DNA from: an uncultured Burkholderiales bacterium
Lineage (GTDB): Bacteria; Pseudomonadota; Gammaproteobacteria; Burkholderiales; Burkholderiaceae_C
NCBI GenBank assembly: GCA_903933115.1
Contig: CAIZIT010000005.1
Location: 1 to 64,000 of the forward strand
Direction of reading: 5' to 3'
DNA: 64,000 nt
The notes under the pieces are model-generated. The model was not told the origin of the DNA. It did not search any database and saw only the letters and a program-made list of their open reading frames with translations. This document shows positions 28,749 to 53,191 of this stretch, piece by piece (the stretch's first letter is position 1; the number at the start of each line of letters is the position of its first letter). A program made the position numbers and the translations under genes.

Positions 28749-28908
28749 TTGAACATTTTAATGCTCGCGAAAGCGAACTTTTGAACGCCTGAAATGTATT
28801 TAAACAAACCAACTTTTTATCCGCTGACTTGATATGAACTCGTCGTTAGCGCACAACACAACACAACCAGCAGCGCTTAAAATTAGAGTCCAGCAACTAA
28901 GCATAAAC

Positions 28909-29526
28909 ATGAAACTAATTGGTGCAATCACAAGTCCATACGTACGTAAAGTTCGGATCGTCATGGCAGAAAAAAAACTAGACTATCAGCTCATTCGTGA
29001 AGACGTCTGGTCCAAAGACACTCAAATTTCTCAGTTCAATCCACTTGGTAAAGTACCTTGTTTGATCATGGAAGGTGGTGAAGCCTTGTTTGATTCCAGG
29101 GTCATCGTTGAATATTTGGACACCCTATCACCAGTCGGCAAATTGATACCAGCCAGCGGGCGTGAGCGTGCAGAGGTCAAAACTTGGGAAGCGCTATCGG
29201 ATGGCGTACTGGATGCCAGTATCTTGGCTCGACTCGAACAAACATGGTCTGGTCGCCTAGATCAAGAACGCTCTCAGGCTTGGATTGATCGTCAAATGGA
29301 TAAAGTAACGACCAGCCTTGTTGCCATGGAAAAAGGCTTGGCGGATAAGCCTTTTTGCTGTGGCATTCACCTCAGCTTGGCCGATATTGCCGTAGGTTGT
29401 GCTTTGGGTTATTTGGACTTTCGCTTCCCTGCCTACAATTGGCGCGACGCACAACCTGAGCTATCGAGATTATTTGAAAAATTGAATTCGCGAAATTCTT
29501 TCATTGAAACAGCGCCCGCTCTATAA
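28909..29526 (+). CDS. Glutathione S-transferase family protein
   Basis: This 205-residue protein has a thioredoxin-like N-terminal half (MKLIGAITSPYVRKVRIVMA, the glutathione-site FDSRVIVEYLD) and an all-helical C-terminal half (SLADIAVGCALGYLDFR), the standard GST fold. The ATG at 28909 starts the first beta strand; an upstream ATG would add 25 residues without similarity. The active-site position near residue 9 is serine/proline (TSPYVRK). Substrate unknown. The gene ends six bases inside the convergent NTF2-like gene. Confidence 0.9.
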   Translation: MKLIGAITSPYVRKVRIVMAEKKLDYQLIREDVWSKDTQISQFNPLGKVPCLIMEGGEALFDSRVIVEYLDTLSPVGKLIPASGRERAEVKTWEALSDGVLDASILARLEQTWSGRLDQERSQAWIDRQMDKVTTSLVAMEKGLADKPFCCGIHLSLADIAVGCALGYLDFRFPAYNWRDAQPELSRLFEKLNSRNSFIETAPAL

Positions 29527-29994
29527 ATTGGCAGAGGCTCTTTTTTTAACCCATCTCAATAAGGCGCCGAGCAGGGGAATTTTTTCATAAACCTCCTCTG
29601 CCGCGTCCCAGTAATCTCTGTGGTTTGAAATGCGCCAAGCCCCTACATCGGCCTCGTACGCCCAAATCAAATGACTCGCACCCTTGATGGTCATGCCCCC
29701 TTTTGAGGGCATTTGGTCTAACGCAAAATAAAACTCCCACGTGATAAAGGTGTGCACGCCTTCGCTTGCAACTTCTTGCACCTTGAACCTTGGATCACGA
29801 AGAGATTCAAACATGTGTTCAAATATTCTTTCAATGCTTTGGATGCCCTTGACATCGTTGAATGGATCTTTAAAGCCTGCATCAAGGGCATAAAAATTCT
29901 TCAATTCCAATAAGTTGCTTTTGGTGATGTTTTCAAAAAAGACAATCAAGCTGTTCACTTGATCTTTGAGCGCTTGATCAGTCAATTCATTCAT
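29521..29994 (-). CDS. NTF2-like (SnoaL-type) protein
   Basis: This 157-residue protein has the cone-shaped NTF2-like fold pattern: an N-terminal helix with LIVFFENITKSNLLELKNFY, then FKDPFNDVKGIQSIERIFEHMF and alternating strands ending in IWAYEADVGAWRISNHRDYWD. It is the last gene of a six-gene operon and lies 12 bases after the SDR gene. A similar NTF2-like protein accompanies SDR, DUF1365 and DUF3833 genes in several proteobacterial stress clusters. No catalytic role can be assigned. Confidence 0.8.
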   Translation of the reverse strand: MNELTDQALKDQVNSLIVFFENITKSNLLELKNFYALDAGFKDPFNDVKGIQSIERIFEHMFESLRDPRFKVQEVASEGVHTFITWEFYFALDQMPSKGGMTIKGASHLIWAYEADVGAWRISNHRDYWDAAEEVYEKIPLLGALLRWVKKRASANL

Positions 29995-30006
29995 GGAATG
30001 GTATCT

Positions 30007-30783
30007 TCAATGTTGATTCTTTGTCGCTTTTGCAACCCATTTAAAGTACAGGGCATATGGCAATAGGCGTAAGAATTTAAGCACCCTGGTGAATCGCTTG
30101 GGAAAATGAATTTCAAACTCGCCCTTTGCCCAGCCCTGAATCATCTCTCTCGCAGCCTGCTCCACCGAAATGATCGCTGGCATGTGAAACTTATTTTGCG
30201 CCGTCAAAGGCGTGTCAACAAAGCCCGGGTTGACCAAACTCACACCGAGACCACGTTCATGAAGATCAAAATACAGGGTTTCCGTCAAATTGATCAAAGC
30301 CGCTTTGGTGGGTCCATAAGCCAAACTCTTGGGAAGCCCCCGAAATCCAGCGACACTTGAGATCACTGAAACATGACCAAATCCTTGCGCCAATAAAGGC
30401 TCCAAGATGAAAGACAGCACTCTACAAAGCCCCAAGTAATTGACATCGTTGTGCTTGAGCATTTCGTCCAAATTGTACGCAGTGGCCGATTGCTCTAAAT
30501 AATGCCCTGCACAATAAACAACCATATCGATCCCCTGGTGCTTGCTCACAGCGTCAAATGCCGCTTCTATACTTGGGGTGCTCATCACATCCATCTGTAC
30601 TGCAAACACCAACGGGTGAGATGCAAAATCTTTGACACGCTCCAAATTTCGAGCTGAAACCGCGACCTTTGCCCCCATATTGACCAATTGCTGAGCGCAC
30701 GCGAGGCCTATCCCACTTGAAGCACCAATCAACCAAACGCTTTTATTGCTCCAGTCCTTGATTTGTGGATTGAATACGGTCAT
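30007..30783 (-). CDS. Short-chain dehydrogenase/reductase
   Basis: This 258-residue Rossmann-fold oxidoreductase has the cofactor loop LIGASSGIGLA (a variant of TGxxxGIG), NVNYLG-type central strand (HNDVNYLGLCR), the catalytic serine in VISSVAGF and the YGPTKAALI (YxxxK) pair. A hydrophobic/basic tail (LRLLPYALYFKWVAKA) suggests membrane contact. Its ATG overlaps the DUF3833 stop (ATGA), so the two are translationally coupled. In ChrR-type clusters this SDR may act on a modified fatty acyl group, but the substrate is not known. Confidence 0.9.
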   Translation of the reverse strand: MTVFNPQIKDWSNKSVWLIGASSGIGLACAQQLVNMGAKVAVSARNLERVKDFASHPLVFAVQMDVMSTPSIEAAFDAVSKHQGIDMVVYCAGHYLEQSATAYNLDEMLKHNDVNYLGLCRVLSFILEPLLAQGFGHVSVISSVAGFRGLPKSLAYGPTKAALINLTETLYFDLHERGLGVSLVNPGFVDTPLTAQNKFHMPAIISVEQAAREMIQGWAKGEFEIHFPKRFTRVLKFLRLLPYALYFKWVAKATKNQH

Positions 30784-31379
30784 GGCTTGCTCGATGGATC
30801 TAACAAGGCGACCTTCTTAAACGACAAAGTGACTTCGCCCAAATAGATCCCCCACTTTGACATCTTGGCCTTGTTCAGTACAACTTCATCATCAATTTGA
30901 AACATCCAGTCCTCAAACTCAACATCCCAGCTTCTGTCATCAACGGGAAGCAAAAGGTGATATTTCCACTGCAAAGCATTGCCGGCACTTTGTCCCAGCG
31001 CAAAACCAACCACATCACCAGCACTGCCTTCGTAGCGACCGTCTCCAAGACTTTTTAATTTCCAAATCCGCTTTTGCTTCGTGCCATCGGAATACAAGAA
31101 ACTTTCGTCCAATACACCCTCTTTGTCATTCCAGTCACATTTCATGTCCACTGTAAATCTTTTTACCACCTTGCCACTTCGGTCTGTAAAAACACCCCAA
31201 GCTTTGACTTGTCCATTGAAAAATTCCTCCAACTTGAAATTGGGTTTTTCGTTTTTATAGTCCACCAGCGATGGAGACGAACAACTGACCAAGCCCAAAG
31301 CCAAGAAAAAAGGCAGTAGCAGGCATTTCAATCGCGAACACACCAGGTGTGTATGAATGTTGAAAAGATATGATTTCAT
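30780..31379 (-). CDS. DUF3833 lipoprotein
   Basis: This 199-residue protein has a lipoprotein signal: hydrophobic LLLPFFLALGLVSC with the lipobox cysteine at about residue 33. The rest matches the DUF3833 type (FKLEEFFNGQVKAWGVFTDR, FLYSDGTKQKRIWKL, GNALQWKYHLLLPVDD), probably a lipocalin-like barrel. The ATG at 31379 is chosen because GGAAGAGA precedes it. It is followed by the SDR with a four-base overlap and preceded by DUF1365 after 75 bases. It is usually found with DUF1365 and FAD oxidoreductase genes. Confidence 0.85.
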   Translation of the reverse strand: MKSYLFNIHTHLVCSRLKCLLLPFFLALGLVSCSSPSLVDYKNEKPNFKLEEFFNGQVKAWGVFTDRSGKVVKRFTVDMKCDWNDKEGVLDESFLYSDGTKQKRIWKLKSLGDGRYEGSAGDVVGFALGQSAGNALQWKYHLLLPVDDRSWDVEFEDWMFQIDDEVVLNKAKMSKWGIYLGEVTLSFKKVALLDPSSKP

Positions 31380-31454
31380 TTTCTCTTCCAATGAGTTTAA
31401 AGTTTGACTTAAAAATCCATCATGAGCGAAGCAGCCCACGAAAAACAACCGTGT

Positions 31455-32243
31455 CTATTTCATGATCGAAATGAATTCACTCGGCAAGGGGGGTGATTTG
31501 TGAAATTTTGTTCCTTTAAACCAAAGCGTCAACGCCTGAACATGAATGCGTAAAATCACACCCAGCGTCAACCAAAAATAGCCCCACAAAGCTTTTCTTC
31601 GGCTCAATGAATTGATCTTTTCCAATGTACCACTGACACTTGTCTTTAACAAGAGTCCATCCGAATCGTAATAATCAATCCGAACCAACGCTTTTTGGCC
31701 CTCTAAATCTTTTTGATTCATTTCTTTTGAGAACATGAATCTAAATTTATAGTCTCCACTGGTTTGAATGAACGGTGAAACATGGAAGACTTTTTCGATG
31801 CAATACTCTCTTCCCAGTTTCGGTGATTCGATCAAATAACAATGACGTTGACCAAAAGTATTGTTCACCTCAACCAAGATGACCTTTAAATCTCCATGTT
31901 TACTGTAACCATACCAAAAACTAACAGGTTTAAAGGTATACCCCCACACTCTTGGAAAACAATGAAGCCAAACTTCACCGTCCACACCTTGAATGCCCTG
32001 TTTTTCTAATACCGACTCAAACCAGTCCAAAGAAGAAACGGCAAGACTTCGACCCGGTTCTCCATGATCCCTGTCGTAAAAGGACAGACCAGAAAACCGA
32101 TTAACACTCAAACACTTGTTGTCCAAGTGCTCAATATGGCGCATCGGCAAAAAAAGAAAATAGGAAGAGTAGCCGAATTGGTGTTTTTTGGGTCGAGACC
32201 TAGAGTGACGAACTTGCCCAAATCCAACATAAGCATTGGCCAT
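31455..32243 (-). CDS. DUF1365 domain-containing protein
   Basis: This 262-residue DUF1365 protein has GFGQVRHSRSRPKKHQFGYS at the start, then RVWGYTFKPVSFWYGY and VEVNNTFGQRHCYL, with a hydrophobic C-terminal segment. The biochemical role is unknown. In other proteobacteria these genes lie with an FAD amine-oxidase-like protein and a cyclopropane-fatty-acid-synthase-like methyltransferase. The start is the ATG that overlaps the stop of the FAD gene in a TGATG junction. Confidence 0.88.
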   Translation of the reverse strand: MANAYVGFGQVRHSRSRPKKHQFGYSSYFLFLPMRHIEHLDNKCLSVNRFSGLSFYDRDHGEPGRSLAVSSLDWFESVLEKQGIQGVDGEVWLHCFPRVWGYTFKPVSFWYGYSKHGDLKVILVEVNNTFGQRHCYLIESPKLGREYCIEKVFHVSPFIQTSGDYKFRFMFSKEMNQKDLEGQKALVRIDYYDSDGLLLKTSVSGTLEKINSLSRRKALWGYFWLTLGVILRIHVQALTLWFKGTKFHKSPPLPSEFISIMK

Positions 32244-33583
32244 CAAACATTGTCCTCAAAGCCCAACTGATGAAGCAAATCGCTGGCCGCCATTTTTCCG
32301 GCTTGAAACCCATCTTCATGAAAGCCACTGCCCAGCCATGCACCTGCATACCAAATTTTAGTGAGGCCAGAAATTTTGTGAATTTCTTTTTGTGCTCGAA
32401 CCGCAACGTCATCAAGTACGGGATGATGGTACTGAATGATTTTTAGTATTTTCTCTTTATCGATGGTTCTCTTTTCATTGAGAGAGACAAAAACGTTTTG
32501 CTGAAAAGGCAAGGGCTGTAATTTGTTGATCCAGTAGTGCAAACACACGCCACCATTCGGTGAAGATCCTGAGACGGCTAAATTTTCAAAATTCCATGCA
32601 GCCCATGCGCTCTTGATAGAGGGCATGACACTTTCATCCGTATGAAGGATGGCTGTGTTGGGTTGTGTTTTGATTGCCCCGAGGATGGATGTTTCTTCTT
32701 GGGTGGGCTGCTGCAACAAAGCCAAAGCCTGTGGTGCATGACAAGCCATGATGGCTGCATCAAACTCCTCAACACCGTCCTTCGTATGTACATATACTTT
32801 CAACTCATTATTAGACCACTTTCGATCAATTTTTATGATTTCAGTGTCAAGTCGCTTGTCAATGATTGAATCGGTAATTTTTTTAACGTAGTTTCTGGAT
32901 CCACCTAAAACCGTAAACCACTGCGGTCTGTTAAGCACTTGAAGTAAGCCGTGGTTATGACAAAACATCGCCAAGCTTTTTATGGGGTAACTCAGCATCG
33001 TTTTCAACTCACAACTCCAAATGCAAGCCAACATGGGCAGCAGGTAGCCTTCTTGAAATACTTCTCCAAACTCATATTTCTTTAAATACGCCTCGAGAGT
33101 CAAAAGATCGTTCTCATGACCTTTATTTAACAATGACTCCTTTACATATTTGGTTGTCAAGCGATTGAACCTCAAAATTTCTCTTAACAGCAACCAAAAC
33201 TTCAAGTTGAAAATATTTCTTCGCTGTGCAAAAACAGTATTCAAGTCGGAACCGCTCCATTCCAAGGTTCGCTTCATCCAAGATACATCTGACTGTACAG
33301 AAAACGACATGTCGGAGGCAGCAGTTTCGACCTGAAGGTCTTTGAACAATTGAATGAGCCCCGGATAAGTTCTCTCATTGAAGACTAAAAAGCCAGTATC
33401 TACAGGGAACGTCTCCTCTTGGTTTTTCTGATTGAGCAGTCGAACGTCTACACTGTTGGCATGACCGCCAAAATAAGAATTTTTTTCGAAGAGCGTAACA
33501 TCTGTTTTGTTTTTTAAAAAATGTGCGGCTGCTAATCCAGATATTCCTGAGCCAATGATTGCAATTTTTTTGCGCATATTCAT
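32243..33583 (-). CDS. NAD(P)/FAD-dependent oxidoreductase, amine-oxidase-like
   Basis: This 446-residue flavoprotein has the dinucleotide-binding loop IAIIGSGISGLAAAHFL, the acidic strand end TLFEKNSYFGGHANSV and a C-terminal FAD motif AGAWLGSGFHEDGFQAG. The type resembles desaturase/amine-oxidase proteins that stand next to DUF1365 genes. In such operons it is thought to act on unsaturated or methylated acyl chains, but this is inference. Its ATG overlaps the glutathione peroxidase stop (ATGA), and its stop overlaps the DUF1365 start, so it is tightly coupled on both sides. Confidence 0.9.
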   Translation of the reverse strand: MNMRKKIAIIGSGISGLAAAHFLKNKTDVTLFEKNSYFGGHANSVDVRLLNQKNQEETFPVDTGFLVFNERTYPGLIQLFKDLQVETAASDMSFSVQSDVSWMKRTLEWSGSDLNTVFAQRRNIFNLKFWLLLREILRFNRLTTKYVKESLLNKGHENDLLTLEAYLKKYEFGEVFQEGYLLPMLACIWSCELKTMLSYPIKSLAMFCHNHGLLQVLNRPQWFTVLGGSRNYVKKITDSIIDKRLDTEIIKIDRKWSNNELKVYVHTKDGVEEFDAAIMACHAPQALALLQQPTQEETSILGAIKTQPNTAILHTDESVMPSIKSAWAAWNFENLAVSGSSPNGGVCLHYWINKLQPLPFQQNVFVSLNEKRTIDKEKILKIIQYHHPVLDDVAVRAQKEIHKISGLTKIWYAGAWLGSGFHEDGFQAGKMAASDLLHQLGFEDNV

Positions 33584-34200
33584 TTATTTTTGTTTTCGCT
33601 CAAAAGAAGTTCTAGGCTCTTCACAAATGAACTGTCTTGTGGGCCTGTCATGCTGCTGTAACTTTTGATTTTCTGCCCGTCTCTTGAAATTAAATATTTA
33701 TAAAAATTCCATTTGGGCGATGTTTTGGTCACTGCGGCCAACTCCTTAAAGAGTTTTGATGCATTTTCACCCTTCACCGATGTCTTGGTGAACATTGGAA
33801 ATTTAACTCCAAATGTGTTCTCACAAAAGTCTGCAATCTGTTCATTGCTGTCAGGCTCCTGCGAAAAGTCATTGGAAGGAAAGCCTAAAACAACCAAACC
33901 ATCGTTCTTGTACTTGTCATAAAGTGCTTCTAAGCCTTTGTACTGCGGTGTAAAACCGCAATAACTGGCTGTGTTCACAATCAAGACGACTCGTCCACTG
34001 TACTGACAAAGGTTTTGAGGCTTTTCGTCTTGCAAGCGCATGACATTTTGATTGAGGATGCTCGGACATGTTGGTGCAGGTAGAGATTCCAACTTTTGAT
34101 TTTGAGCAAAACTCAAATCTGCAAAAGAAAAGGATATGCATGCAGCCAAGACCAGGACCTGACCAAGCTTATCGAACTCGTTTTTCAACACATTTTTCAT
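33580..34200 (-). CDS. Glutathione peroxidase family protein with signal peptide
   Basis: This 206-residue thiol peroxidase has the catalytic cysteine in NTASYCGFTPQYKGLE, the second site GFPSNDF (Asp in place of the usual Gln, a common variant) and KWNFYKYLI with the catalytic tryptophan. An N-terminal hydrophobic signal (LGQVLVLAACISFSFADLSFA) suggests export to the periplasm, unlike cytosolic homologues. The start at ATG 34200 has a GAGGT ribosome site; an in-frame upstream start is not needed. It is the first gene of the six-gene operon, whose promoter should lie in 34201-34338. Confidence 0.9.
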   Translation of the reverse strand: MKNVLKNEFDKLGQVLVLAACISFSFADLSFAQNQKLESLPAPTCPSILNQNVMRLQDEKPQNLCQYSGRVVLIVNTASYCGFTPQYKGLEALYDKYKNDGLVVLGFPSNDFSQEPDSNEQIADFCENTFGVKFPMFTKTSVKGENASKLFKELAAVTKTSPKWNFYKYLISRDGQKIKSYSSMTGPQDSSFVKSLELLLSENKNK

Positions 34201-34338
34201 AATGACCTCACATCCATTGAACATCAGCGACCATGCATTCTTAGACAATTCAGTATAAATGAGGGGCCACTGAATCGAACTTAATCCGATTAAAATACCT
34301 TTTTATCTTATGTTTTTATAACTTAATACCTATTTGCC

Positions 34339-34833
34339 ATGAGCCATCCACTTTTTACTTCAAAAATATTGGAACCACAGGCATTGAGATTGCAGTTGGA
34401 GAATATTAAATCTCTTGGTAGTGTTGTTTTCACCAATGGCGTCTTTGATGTGATCCATAAAGGCCATGTAAGCTATTTAGATCAAGCTCGACAAATGGGA
34501 GACGTTTTAATCGTTGCCCTCAATACGGACCGCTCTGCACGCTTATTGGGCAAAGGACAAGACCGTCCTCTCAACACTTTAGTTGACAGAGCGCATGTGA
34601 TCGCTGCATTAGAAAGTGTTTCATATGTAACTTGGTTTGATGAGAGCACGCCCATTGACATCATCAAACTCATACGTCCTGATCTGATTGTCAAGGGAGG
34701 AGACTATGACATGAGCACTTTAGATGAAACCAAATTTGTGGAGTCTTATGGTGGCAAAGCTGCAGCAATTCAATTTCTAAGCGGATACTCCACCACCGCA
34801 TTGGTTCAAAAAATTCATCAAGGCAAAGGTTAA
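34339..34833 (+). CDS. rfaE2: D-glycero-beta-D-manno-heptose 1-phosphate adenylyltransferase
   Basis: This enzyme makes ADP-heptose, the precursor of the LPS inner core. The 164-residue protein is the stand-alone nucleotidyltransferase half (HldE C-terminal domain) with VFTNGVFDVIHKGHVSYL (HxGH) and DLIVKGGDYDMSTL near the end. The kinase half is not adjacent, so it must be elsewhere. It is divergent from the peroxidase operon and convergent with glnE, with only 14 bases between. Confidence 0.93.
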   Translation: MSHPLFTSKILEPQALRLQLENIKSLGSVVFTNGVFDVIHKGHVSYLDQARQMGDVLIVALNTDRSARLLGKGQDRPLNTLVDRAHVIAALESVSYVTWFDESTPIDIIKLIRPDLIVKGGDYDMSTLDETKFVESYGGKAAAIQFLSGYSTTALVQKIHQGKG

Positions 34834-51643: not shown

Positions 51644-52729
51644 TCAAGCAGGCAAAGGCGCTGGGACAGAGGTCGAATGGCCTTGATAGTTCGTCCAGCA
51701 ACGCTTGGTGAAGTCGTAGAGCTTACAGCTCTTGGCGGTTTCAAAATACCAAGACCATGAGAAGGGCTGAACAATGATGCGCTCAGGCAACATGGTCTCG
51801 AGCATGCTTTGCGCGGATTTCAATTTATACAAAGGAATGCTCATGTCCACGTGGTGGGCCGTGTGCTCCATGATGTGATGCATCATCGCACCAATATTGA
51901 AAGGGAAGGTCAAGTGAACCGTGGTGGAGACAAAGGGCTGTGCCTTGGACCAAGCTGTCCGCTCATCGTGCCAAGACACCTTGACATGGGTGTGGTGGAC
52001 ATACACCACAAAACCAATCATGGTGCACCAAAAGAAAAACGGGATCAGCACTGAAAACAAGCCCAGCACCCAAATGGATTGCTCGGTGGCTTGAGCCAGG
52101 CTGTAAATGGCACCCAACCAAATCAATCCAAAGGCACTCACCAGCAAGTTGTCTTTGATGAAAATGGGTCTGCGAGTTGGCATGTTTTTCTTGTTGGGAA
52201 AGAACATTTTGTTCCACCAAATCTCAATCATGTAATACAAGCCTGGCGCCCAGCCACTTCTGTACACACGGTCAAGCATCCTCCCAACAGGGCCCAGCGC
52301 TTCAAACTCGTCCTTGGTCAAAGGGGCCCAGACGAAATCAAAACCCTTCAAATTGGTATACCCGTGGTGCACGACATTGTGTCCAATGTCCCACAAGCTG
52401 TAAGGGGTCAGAGAGGGCAAAAAGGCAATTCTGCCAATCCACTTGTTCAAGTTGCGATGAGGCGTCAAGCTTTGGTGGCAGGCGTCATGCCCAATGATGA
52501 AAAGTCGTCCAATGGTAAAACCCGCACCTGCGGCACAAATCAACTTGAGCCACCAAGACTCAAAAGCCACGGTGCCCGCCAAAAACAGGCTCCAAATGCA
52601 AAGGTCAAGAATCAGTAAAAAAATGGCAGTTGCTGTGGTGCGCTCAGACAAGGGGACAAGCCACTCACGAATCACCTTGCGGTGGGGCATCGGTTGGTCT
52701 ACAGGAATTGGAGTTTCTATGGTTTTCAT
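51644..52729 (-). CDS. Fatty acid desaturase
   Basis: This membrane di-iron desaturase introduces double bonds into acyl chains. The 361-residue protein shows the three histidine boxes: HDACHQS, HNVVHHGYT and HHIMEHTAHHVD, plus two pairs of hydrophobic segments. The start is ATG 52729 (MKTIETPIPVDQPM); the frame is open for 33 codons upstream without similarity. It sits between pgk and pyk on the opposite strand, next to an AT-rich 462-base gap, so it looks like an insertion into a conserved gene run. The exact substrate and position of desaturation are unknown. Confidence 0.9.
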   Translation of the reverse strand: MKTIETPIPVDQPMPHRKVIREWLVPLSERTTATAIFLLILDLCIWSLFLAGTVAFESWWLKLICAAGAGFTIGRLFIIGHDACHQSLTPHRNLNKWIGRIAFLPSLTPYSLWDIGHNVVHHGYTNLKGFDFVWAPLTKDEFEALGPVGRMLDRVYRSGWAPGLYYMIEIWWNKMFFPNKKNMPTRRPIFIKDNLLVSAFGLIWLGAIYSLAQATEQSIWVLGLFSVLIPFFFWCTMIGFVVYVHHTHVKVSWHDERTAWSKAQPFVSTTVHLTFPFNIGAMMHHIMEHTAHHVDMSIPLYKLKSAQSMLETMLPERIIVQPFSWSWYFETAKSCKLYDFTKRCWTNYQGHSTSVPAPLPA

Positions 52730-53191
52730 CGATAAGGACGTCAGTTTTGCCAGATATGACCCTTCAGCTTGGCACGACAAGAGGCTCACGCTCAAAGGCA
52801 AAGGACCACTACCAGGGGCAAATTTCAAACAAATTTACATTTCGAAATTCAAAAATCTAAAATTTCTTTATTTCACTACACATTATCCTCTTTACCAAGA
52901 AAATCCCAAAATGCCTTTATGAAAATGACTTAGTCGATCAGGGCTTTTGTATTTTCATGTACTACTTTAATACTATTTATGTCGCATTTACGTTTGTGAC
53001 TTTTTGCGCGAGCAGCATTTCTCACCTTCTTGAGATCTTCGCTTTTTTTTCCTACCGCTTGGGGTCCATCGCAGGTGAGCGTTCTTGGCCAGGGCCTTCT
53101 ACCCCCAACTCAAGCCCGCAGATCATGACCCCCTCTAAAAAGGCGGGCCATGCGTGCAGTGAATGCGAGCTTTCATGGGACAATCTGAATC
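52730..53191. other. 462-base gap between the desaturase and pyk genes
   Basis: No gene is recognised. The part at 52820-53000 is very AT-rich and holds the ten-base palindrome ATTTCGAAAT (52839-52848), a possible operator about 110 bases upstream of the desaturase start. The 53000-53191 part is of normal composition and should carry the pyk promoter and leader. No terminator-like or tRNA-like structure is seen. Confidence 0.55.

Follow-up and report, generated by a model that had tools for sequence, protein, structure and literature searches.

Six minus-strand genes of the window (the whole 64,000-nucleotide stretch analysed here, from an uncultured Burkholderiales bacterium) likely form the UfaD/UfaO arm of the furan-fatty-acid (FuFA) pathway together with a glutathione peroxidase (GPx), with the missing methyltransferase (MT) being the UfaM-type gene at C70:3302-4567, elsewhere in the genome. 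The genes are of a known bacterial kind whose product, by analogy, is probably light-protective furan lipids. A broader proposal drawn from sequence is more tentative, and we give it slightly less than an even chance: that an Ala/Gln (usually Ser/Ala/Gln) active site marks a distinct DUF1365-tied MT family, spread over alpha-, beta-, and gamma-proteobacteria and devoid of the histidine bicarbonate ligand, and that a freshwater-type clade runs the pathway from two loci, with neither known type of photo-regulator in the window's genome.

Organization of the operon

The genes and their surroundings are as follows.

28834..29526, plus strand: GST gene, marking one side of the conserved locus, outside the operon
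29521..29994, minus strand: SnoaL/NTF2-like protein, final operon gene; PF12680 (SnoaL_2), E 1.2e-9
30007..30783, minus strand: short-chain dehydrogenase/reductase (SDR); PF00106, E 8.2e-36
30780..31448, minus strand: DUF3833 putative lipoprotein; PF12915, E 6.4e-69, one match in the genome
31380..31454, minus strand: intergenic stretch separating DUF1365 from DUF3833, occupied in relatives by the MT and, variably, by Chalcone_3-like and MFS genes
31455..32246, minus strand: UfaO-like DUF1365 protein; PF07103, E 5.7e-69
32243..33583, minus strand: UfaD-like NAD/FAD-binding oxidoreductase; PF01593 (Amino_oxidase), PF13450 (NAD_binding_8)
33580..34248, minus strand: GPx, operon gene 1; non-selenium glutathione peroxidase, PF00255 (GSHPx), E 9.5e-33
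34249..34338, no strand: upstream region common to GPx and hldE2, without a LitR-type gene
34339..34833, plus strand: HldE2/RfaE2-like gene (CTP_transf_like), marking the other side, outside the operon

Open reading frames and a domain search show that the six genes overlap or abut. The junctions are ATGA between GPx and the FAD oxidoreductase, TGATG between the latter and DUF1365, and ATGA between DUF3833 and the SDR, with 12 bases separating the SDR from the NTF2-like gene, which itself overlaps the 3' end of the convergent GST gene. Frames, domains, and junctions thus bear out the six-gene operon with overlaps or short gaps described in the initial annotation, and the neighbouring frames, read by eye and with their domains, agree with it that no MT, sigma factor, or ChrR-type anti-sigma gene adjoins the operon. 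Its periplasmic peroxidase “fused in front” is literally wrong, as the GPx is a separate frame with a 4-base overlap.

Inspection by eye suggests that the GPx probably starts at an inner ATG at 34200 and has a signal-like N-terminal stretch; its solved relatives are yeast Hyr1 and phospholipid-hydroperoxide GPx. The nearest solved relative of the FAD oxidoreductase by sequence is LkcE, and its gene lies immediately upstream of DUF1365 both here and in relatives. DUF1365 is single copy in the genome. In fold searches the best Foldseek match had an E of 0.01, and the top VIA-align hit was nitrobindin (Z 7.4, rmsd 4.3, 133 aligned), a likeness that may reflect just a common barrel and is kept as a lead. 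The DUF3833 protein has a lipobox-like LVSC and a likely start at an inner ATG at 31379, both judged by eye. NCBIfam assigns no family to the DUF1365, DUF3833, or NTF2-like proteins.

Many congeners carry the same operon at the same place, between GlnE-HldE and GST-PurB, so the arrangement is more than chance. The leading GPx, taken initially as a peculiarity of a variant, recurs in this position in congeners and is found in 47 genus genomes among the stretches retrieved; a GPx is also reported in the Shewanella RpoE2-ChrR regulon (PMC4336711).

Location of the methyltransferase

A family profile and a protein search find one operon-type MT in the window's genome, the C70 gene, which has a CMAS match of 286 bits and lies directly before DUF2237, a photolyase, and a second GPx gene. 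Both an MT and the FAD gene occur in 56 of 61 congeneric genomes, counts that set aside seven MT paralogues of 29-35%, one MT fragment, and one FAD fragment. The MT is inside the operon in 53 of the 56, being adjacent to the FAD gene on one contig in 48 and beside DUF1365 at a contig end in five (G004, G012, G034, G078, G083). Likewise, at named loci the MT lies no more than 400 bases downstream of DUF1365 in 79/80, the last (L188) ending there.

The three genomes with the MT outside the operon, that of the window (G000), G018, and G029, belong to one clade, and each has a single MT of the operon family beside a dehydrogenase-like gene. The same gene adjoins the MT of G062, a 91% complete genome in which the MT is outside the operon and the FAD gene has no match; sister genomes G005, G021, and G032 have this gene with no MT beside it. 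The adjacency of MT, DUF2237, and photolyase occurs in G000 only, the MT being on a different contig from, or apart from, DUF2237-photolyase in G018, G029, and G062. One MT per genome is no strict rule of the genus, because G022 and G023 each have two full-length MTs of the operon kind.

Active site of the methyltransferase

Alignment of the C70 MT to the E. coli enzyme (6bqc) places Gln at His266, Ala at His240, and Ser at Cys139. Gln replaces His266 in 60/60 genus and order MTs and in 77/78 named MTs (the other has a gap there), two sets that may share genomes. Among 138 operon-type MTs, all have Ala at His240 and 129 have Ser at Cys139, the remainder having Ala or Gly. The Ser/Ala/Gln triad is also found in 9/9 DUF1365-linked MTs from alpha-, beta-, and gamma-proteobacterial plasmid records. 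The family so marked is defined by linkage to DUF1365 rather than by MTs with a proven UfaM product.

Cyclopropane synthase binds bicarbonate through Glu239, His266, and Tyr317 (PMC11387697). The C70 MT keeps Glu239 and Tyr317 and has Gln for His266; by its sequence, it is not a canonical cyclopropane synthase. Absence of the histidine ligand would explain the formation of an allylic methyl alkene, the furan precursor, instead of a ring. The Halomonas UfaM expressed in E. coli is reported to yield 11-methyloctadec-12-enoate, with cyclic fatty acids detected in the ufaM strain as well (PMC12089945).

Proposed pathway

The functions of UfaD, UfaO, and UfaM have been described, and UfaO contains DUF1365 (PMC7380195). 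All three have counterparts here: the single-copy PF07103 protein for UfaO, the FAD oxidoreductase joined to it by TGATG for UfaD, and the Cfa-like C70 MT with its Ser/Ala/Gln triad for UfaM. UfaD and UfaO are assigned by domains and by that published description. By analogy with R. sphaeroides, the MT would methylate cis-vaccenoyl chains in phospholipids to 11-methyl-12-trans-18:1, the UfaD-like enzyme, a predicted fatty-acyl desaturase, would add a conjugated double bond, and the UfaO-like protein, the predicted furan-forming oxygenase, would insert oxygen derived from O2 to close the ring. The furan lipid would scavenge singlet oxygen, while the GPx, if exported, would remove (lipid) hydroperoxides. 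The DUF3833, SDR, and NTF2-like proteins are presumably accessory, and the two loci would be expressed jointly.

Regulation

An rpoE-chrR pair is found neither beside the operon nor in the genome, an absence that is not absolute in a draft. Four Sigma70_r4_2 matches are present, none adjoining a cupin gene and one adjoining NrsF. The best Cupin_7 protein, a double cupin on C24, was rejected as ChrR because it has two Cupin_7 domains and is not preceded by a sigma region-4 match; the gene lies 455 bases from a contig end. The sigmaE promoter TGATC-N18-CGTA reaches at best 7/9 upstream of the GPx and 6/9 upstream of the C70 MT. Although 10/48 GPx promoters reach 8/9, versus 9.6% in shuffles, most of these strings are near-identical and apparently inside LitR-like coding sequence, and a sigmaE-type promoter was discarded. 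The NrsF-type ECF sigma (C58) is a possible regulator, but the promoters scanned lack GTAACC/GTAACG/GGTTAC, its presumed motif, which draws on the sequence upstream of the sigma gene itself.

Beside the operon of congeners, the regulator, if present, is a LitR/CarH-like MerR protein and not sigmaE-ChrR. Its gene adjoins the GPx, divergently, in 29/47 genus genomes and falls within the stretch of 18/80 named loci; MerR and B12-binding domains were demonstrated on one congener protein (P0003). LitR-like matches occur in 40/61 genus genomes, some of them weak or away from the operon, and in the window's genome there are none at E<=1e-10. Upstream of the window's operon, a scan extending beyond 34249..34338 finds no TGTC-N3-GACA palindrome, and the T(G/A)TA(C/T)A-N12 repeat reaches at best 9/12 (shuffle p 0.85); in G018 it reaches 12/12. 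The comparison of palindromes with LitR covers promoters of at least 150 bases, G053 excepted, and counts LitR as present only at E<=1e-60; G018, G029, and G069, whose matches are distant or weak, are scored without it. A second LitR beside the photolyase of G018, G033, and G072 was rejected, the match covering just 56-83 DNA-binding residues.

Comparison with known systems

In Rhodobacter sphaeroides, UfaM (RSP2144) and the RSP1091-1087 operon (UfaD, UfaO, and three others) are reported to be under sigmaE-ChrR control (PMC7380195; PMC12089945). There too, the FAD enzyme and DUF1365 share an operon with further genes and the MT is distant, so separation of the MT is not new. The window's genome differs in that no sigmaE-ChrR was found, the GPx leads the operon, and the MT precedes DUF2237, a photolyase, and a GPx. 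A literature search found no paper on ufaM relocation or the active-site Gln, which is not proof that none exists.

Plasmid pAZKH of Azoarcus sp. KH32C shows the gene order deduced for the ancestral form of the window's operon (AZKH_RS26025-25985: MerR, FAD, DUF1365, Cfa-like, chalcone isomerase-like, MFS, DUF3833, SDR, NTF2). Unlike the window, this cluster retains the MT, the chalcone-like and MFS genes, and a divergent MerR, and has no GPx. The Class II LitR regulon described in Pseudomonas putida/mendocina (phrB, SDR, FAD oxidoreductase, ufaM, fol genes) has related content under a B12-type MerR repressor (PMC9758184), a gene that the window's congeners carry and the window's genome lacks at the threshold above. 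In Shewanella oneidensis, the RpoE2-ChrR regulon is described as uniting the periplasmic GPx pgpD, a photolyase, and a Cfa-like gene (phrB-cfa operon) in one response, with pgpD in its own operon under ECF sigma and ChrR (PMC4336711), whereas in the window the GPx is within the ufaD-ufaO operon. The claim that such a photo-oxidative lipid-modification set accompanies ECF sigma-ChrR elsewhere is confirmed in Rhizobium tropici, R. daejeonense, and Azospirillum; in Paracoccus, a sigma/anti-sigma pair lies beside such a set.

Alternative explanations

The operon may instead have shed its MT, with a related MT of the same function, acquired from a different lineage within the genus, taking its place (xenologous replacement); we consider this unlikely. 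Quick and careful free trees place the single clade (100/100) comprising the G000, G018, G029, and G062 MTs away from the MTs of G026/G005/G021/G034, whose genomes are the sisters according to operon and flank genes. However, constraining the two groups together costs just 1.2 log-likelihood units (AU p 0.42), and a reduced-set tree unites all eight with support 0. Suggested by the quick tree, horizontal replacement is neither supported nor rejected by the later ones. The MT trees contain long branches.

A variant pathway in which the FAD and DUF1365 enzymes act on unmethylated chains, the C70 MT being unrelated, is very improbable. The MT does lie apart, and no convincing motif is common to the operon and C70 MT promoters; however, the genome keeps one operon-type MT with an Ala/Gln signature, unlike cyclopropane synthases, and in R. 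sphaeroides the distant ufaM is reported to be needed with the other two for furan formation (PMC7380195; PMC12089945). The variant of the initial annotation survives in that the MT has gone from the operon, but not as a pathway without one. Against it stood the prospect that the missing genes lie elsewhere as one regulon, which is half borne out, because MT and photolyase are together at C70 and the sigma/ChrR pair was not found. Scarcely more probable is that the operon is a remnant of little function, on its way out after MT, MFS, Chalcone_3, and regulator left the locus. The missing LitR-like match and palindrome in G000 are consistent with decay, as is G006, which has neither an MT nor a FAD match at 97% completeness, but G000, G018, and G029 each retain six closely spaced open frames and all four clade genomes keep the family MT.

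Implications

With the UfaM-type gene assigned to C70, an apparently incomplete pathway is explained: the enzyme is present, but elsewhere in the genome. Public annotation gives both kinds of MT one name, and a cheap sequence rule, Ser/Ala/Gln versus Cys/His/His, would separate probable furan-lipid MTs from the cyclopropane type. In humic lakes, light is reported to generate singlet oxygen (PMC3965437). The findings suggest that furan-lipid production may be widespread in Comamonadaceae, a family with many lake bacteria.

The operon and its predicted product

The genome that holds the window (G000) comprises 2.82 Mb in 119 contigs and is 99% complete and 1.2% contaminated. The genes discussed here are:

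29521-34248, minus strand: operon of, in order, glutathione peroxidase (GPx), FAD oxidoreductase, DUF1365, DUF3833, SDR and SnoaL/NTF2-like genes
34200, minus strand: likely start of GPx
31455-32246, minus strand: DUF1365
51644-52828: frame about 17 kb from the operon that presumably resembles a membrane fatty-acid desaturase, with His-box-like motifs
C70:3302-4567 (another contig of G000): Cfa-like methyltransferase

The six genes are joined closely, as initially described, by ATGA and TGATG overlaps, a gap of about 75 bases ahead of the likely DUF3833 start, a further ATGA overlap, and 12 bases. The GPx forms its own separate frame and is not "fused in front" in the literal sense; its N terminus is signal-like when read by eye, and its structure matches are Cys-type and phospholipid-hydroperoxide GPx. 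The best named relatives of the window DUF1365 are from Comamonadaceae (top identity 52–53%), so the host is probably related to this family. AlphaFold models this DUF1365 protein, at a mean pLDDT of 89, as a beta barrel with a long C-terminal helix. Its closest structural matches, nitrobindin-like heme barrels, score a Z of 7.4, under the level showing kinship. A heme or lipid cavity in UfaO, the DUF1365 protein of furan fatty acid (FuFA) synthesis, would be a lead only.

In Rhodobacter sphaeroides, UfaM (RSP2144) gives 11Me-12t-18:1, UfaD (RSP1091, NAD-FAD-binding) gives 11Me-10t,12t-18:2, and UfaO (RSP1090) forms 9M5-FuFA using O2, while RSP1087-1089 are dispensable and singlet oxygen exposure leads to loss of 9M5-FuFA (excerpts of PMC7380195). 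The core sigmaE-ChrR regulon includes furan-lipid synthesis genes (excerpt of PMC6852236). In R. sphaeroides, ufaM is distant from ufaD and ufaO, whereas the three are consecutive in Halomonas, whose ufaM yields 11-methyloctadec-12-enoate in E. coli, in a strain also having cyclic fatty acids (excerpts of PMC12089945). By domain and order, the window's gene set fits this pathway, and a furan lipid would be its product.

Location of the methyltransferase

The initial annotation saw no methyltransferase next to the operon, which holds, but the genome has one elsewhere. The missing METHYLTRANSFERASE, a Cfa-like methyltransferase, lies on a 137 kb contig of G000, near a photolyase; the genome search suggested for both genes thus found them, with a gene between that we take from its sequence to be DUF2237. 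At L050:785-4567, the methyltransferase is closely followed on the same strand by DUF2237, the photolyase (PF00875/PF03441) and a second, cytosolic-type GPx with no signal by eye, possibly a second photo-stress operon.

The DUF2237-photolyase pair occurs without the methyltransferase in several congeners. A double-cupin ChrR-like protein is encoded beside the photolyase in G006 (L270); in some other genomes, such as G019 and G027, the coordinates place the two close together on one contig. Near the pair in G018, G033 and G072 (L260, L262, L271) is a MerR-type DNA-binding stretch, of which 56–83 residues match P0003, a LitR-like regulator of G009 with MerR and B12-binding domains, at 34–39% identity.

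Among 61 congeneric genomes, the methyltransferase matches in 58 and the FAD protein in 56. Where both are present (56), they are adjacent on one contig in 48; in five (G004, G012, G034, G078, G083) a contig end separates FAD from DUF1365, which the methyltransferase adjoins; and in three (G000, G018, G029) the methyltransferase is elsewhere. G008 and G062 have a methyltransferase match without FAD, and protein searches matched neither in G002, G006 and G031, of which G006 is 97% complete and has a photolyase. G022 and G023 carry two full-length operon-type methyltransferases apiece, a possible duplication in drafts that are 4–6% contaminated. In named loci, the methyltransferase is at most 400 bases downstream of DUF1365 in 79 of 80 (the L188 sequence stops there). 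The usual order in the congeners read, with gaps, is GlnE, HldE, [LitR-like MerR], GPx, FAD, DUF1365, methyltransferase, (Chalcone_3-like), (MFS), DUF3833, SDR, NTF2, GST, PurB.

Possible origins of the separately located methyltransferase

A single clade (100/100) unites the methyltransferases of G000, G018, G029 and G062, all of which adjoin the same gene, which we name 2-hydroxyacid-dehydrogenase-like. Orthologues of this gene at about 50% identity occur in G005, G021, G032 and G026. In the first three, its downstream neighbours are those seen in the clade but the methyltransferase is absent, so the latter arrived at this spot in one clade; the gene upstream of the dehydrogenase-like gene in these three genomes is inverted and on the far side in the clade. 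The methyltransferase is within the operon in G005 and G021, and likewise in G032 as far as split contigs show.

Either the old operon gene moved, or a related gene replaced it. Trees of FAD+DUF1365+SDR+NTF2 and of PurB+GST+HldE both place G000, G018 and G029 with G026, G005, G034, G032 and G021. Methyltransferase trees leave the grouping of the clade with this sister lineage undecided, and joining them is not rejected (AU p 0.42). Replacement is possible; a move of the old operon gene is favoured as the simpler reading.

Regulation

As first noted, no sigma/anti-sigma ChrR pair is beside the operon, and none was seen in the draft genome of G000 among four Sigma70_r4_2 matches inspected: a FliA-like gene and a response regulator (both presumed from sequence), an ECF with an NrsF anti-sigma, and an ECF without cupins next to it. 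The NrsF-linked ECF (L046:2441-4292) is divergent from an MKDSM-like repeat protein whose frame leaves the contig end.

Of the 47 genus genomes for which the GPx stretch was retrieved, 29 have a LitR-like gene adjoining GPx; among the 80 named loci, 18 have one within the stretch covered. No LitR-like match was found in G000; those in G018 and G029 are distant (34–35%) and lie apart from the operon, and that in G062 is weak. The palindrome TGTC-N3-GACA stands upstream of GPx in 20 of the 30 genomes whose LitR match is close, versus 3 of 17 without such a match (Fisher p 0.002, ignoring kinship; background 0.4% per shuffled promoter), and is absent there in G000, G018 and G029. The T(G/A)TA(C/T)A-N12 repeat, the class II LitR consensus (excerpt of PMC9758184), is perfect in G018 (shuffle p 0.01), 11/12 at the same place in G029 (p 0.085), and at best 9/12 at a different place in G000 (p 0.85).

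Active site of the methyltransferase

E. coli cyclopropane synthase holds bicarbonate by Glu239, His266 and Tyr317 (excerpt of PMC11387697). In an alignment to 6bqc, a solved chain of the E. coli enzyme, Glu and Tyr are kept in the C70 methyltransferase, which has Gln at His266, Ala at His240 and Ser at Cys139. The latter two positions presumably matter in the E. coli enzyme. The residues recur in two sets, which may overlap in genomes: 60 genus and order methyltransferases, four of them relocated (Gln and Ala in all 60 at the first two positions, and Ser in 58 or Ala in 2 at the third), and 78 from named loci (Gln 77 with one gap, Ala 78, Ser 71/Ala 5/Gly 2). Seven genus paralogues differ, three being Cys/His/His (in the order 139/240/266) as in true synthases and four Cys/Gln/Gln, another type.

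In 12 plasmid records picked by eye from 169 and 60 search matches, Ser/Ala/Gln is in all nine DUF1365-linked methyltransferases (Azoarcus, Burkholderia, two Rhizobium, Paracoccus, Plesiomonas, Azospirillum, Salinivibrio, Aeromonas), in a Cupriavidus enzyme near such genes, and in a lone Roseicitreum one. Second methyltransferases at three of the plasmid loci are Cys/His/His; in Burkholderia anthina, Rhizobium tropici and Cupriavidus (L277, L278, L286), an enzyme of this type is encoded close to the DUF1365 cluster and adjoins a DUF1295 gene, perhaps for another lipid modification. A Methylophaga plasmid methyltransferase (L283:6902-8140), unlinked to DUF1365, has the intermediate Cys/His/Gln, with a gene for a fatty acid cis/trans isomerase nearby. 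Judged from these aligned genus, order, named-locus and plasmid sequences, the Ser/Ala/Gln enzymes would constitute a putative furan-type methyltransferase family.

In G000, the predicted furan-lipid set has its methyltransferase at a separate locus and lacks the local light regulator. The set is of a known kind, real, well conserved and mostly ordinary, in a little studied host. Of the side results, the active-site rule is the most useful.
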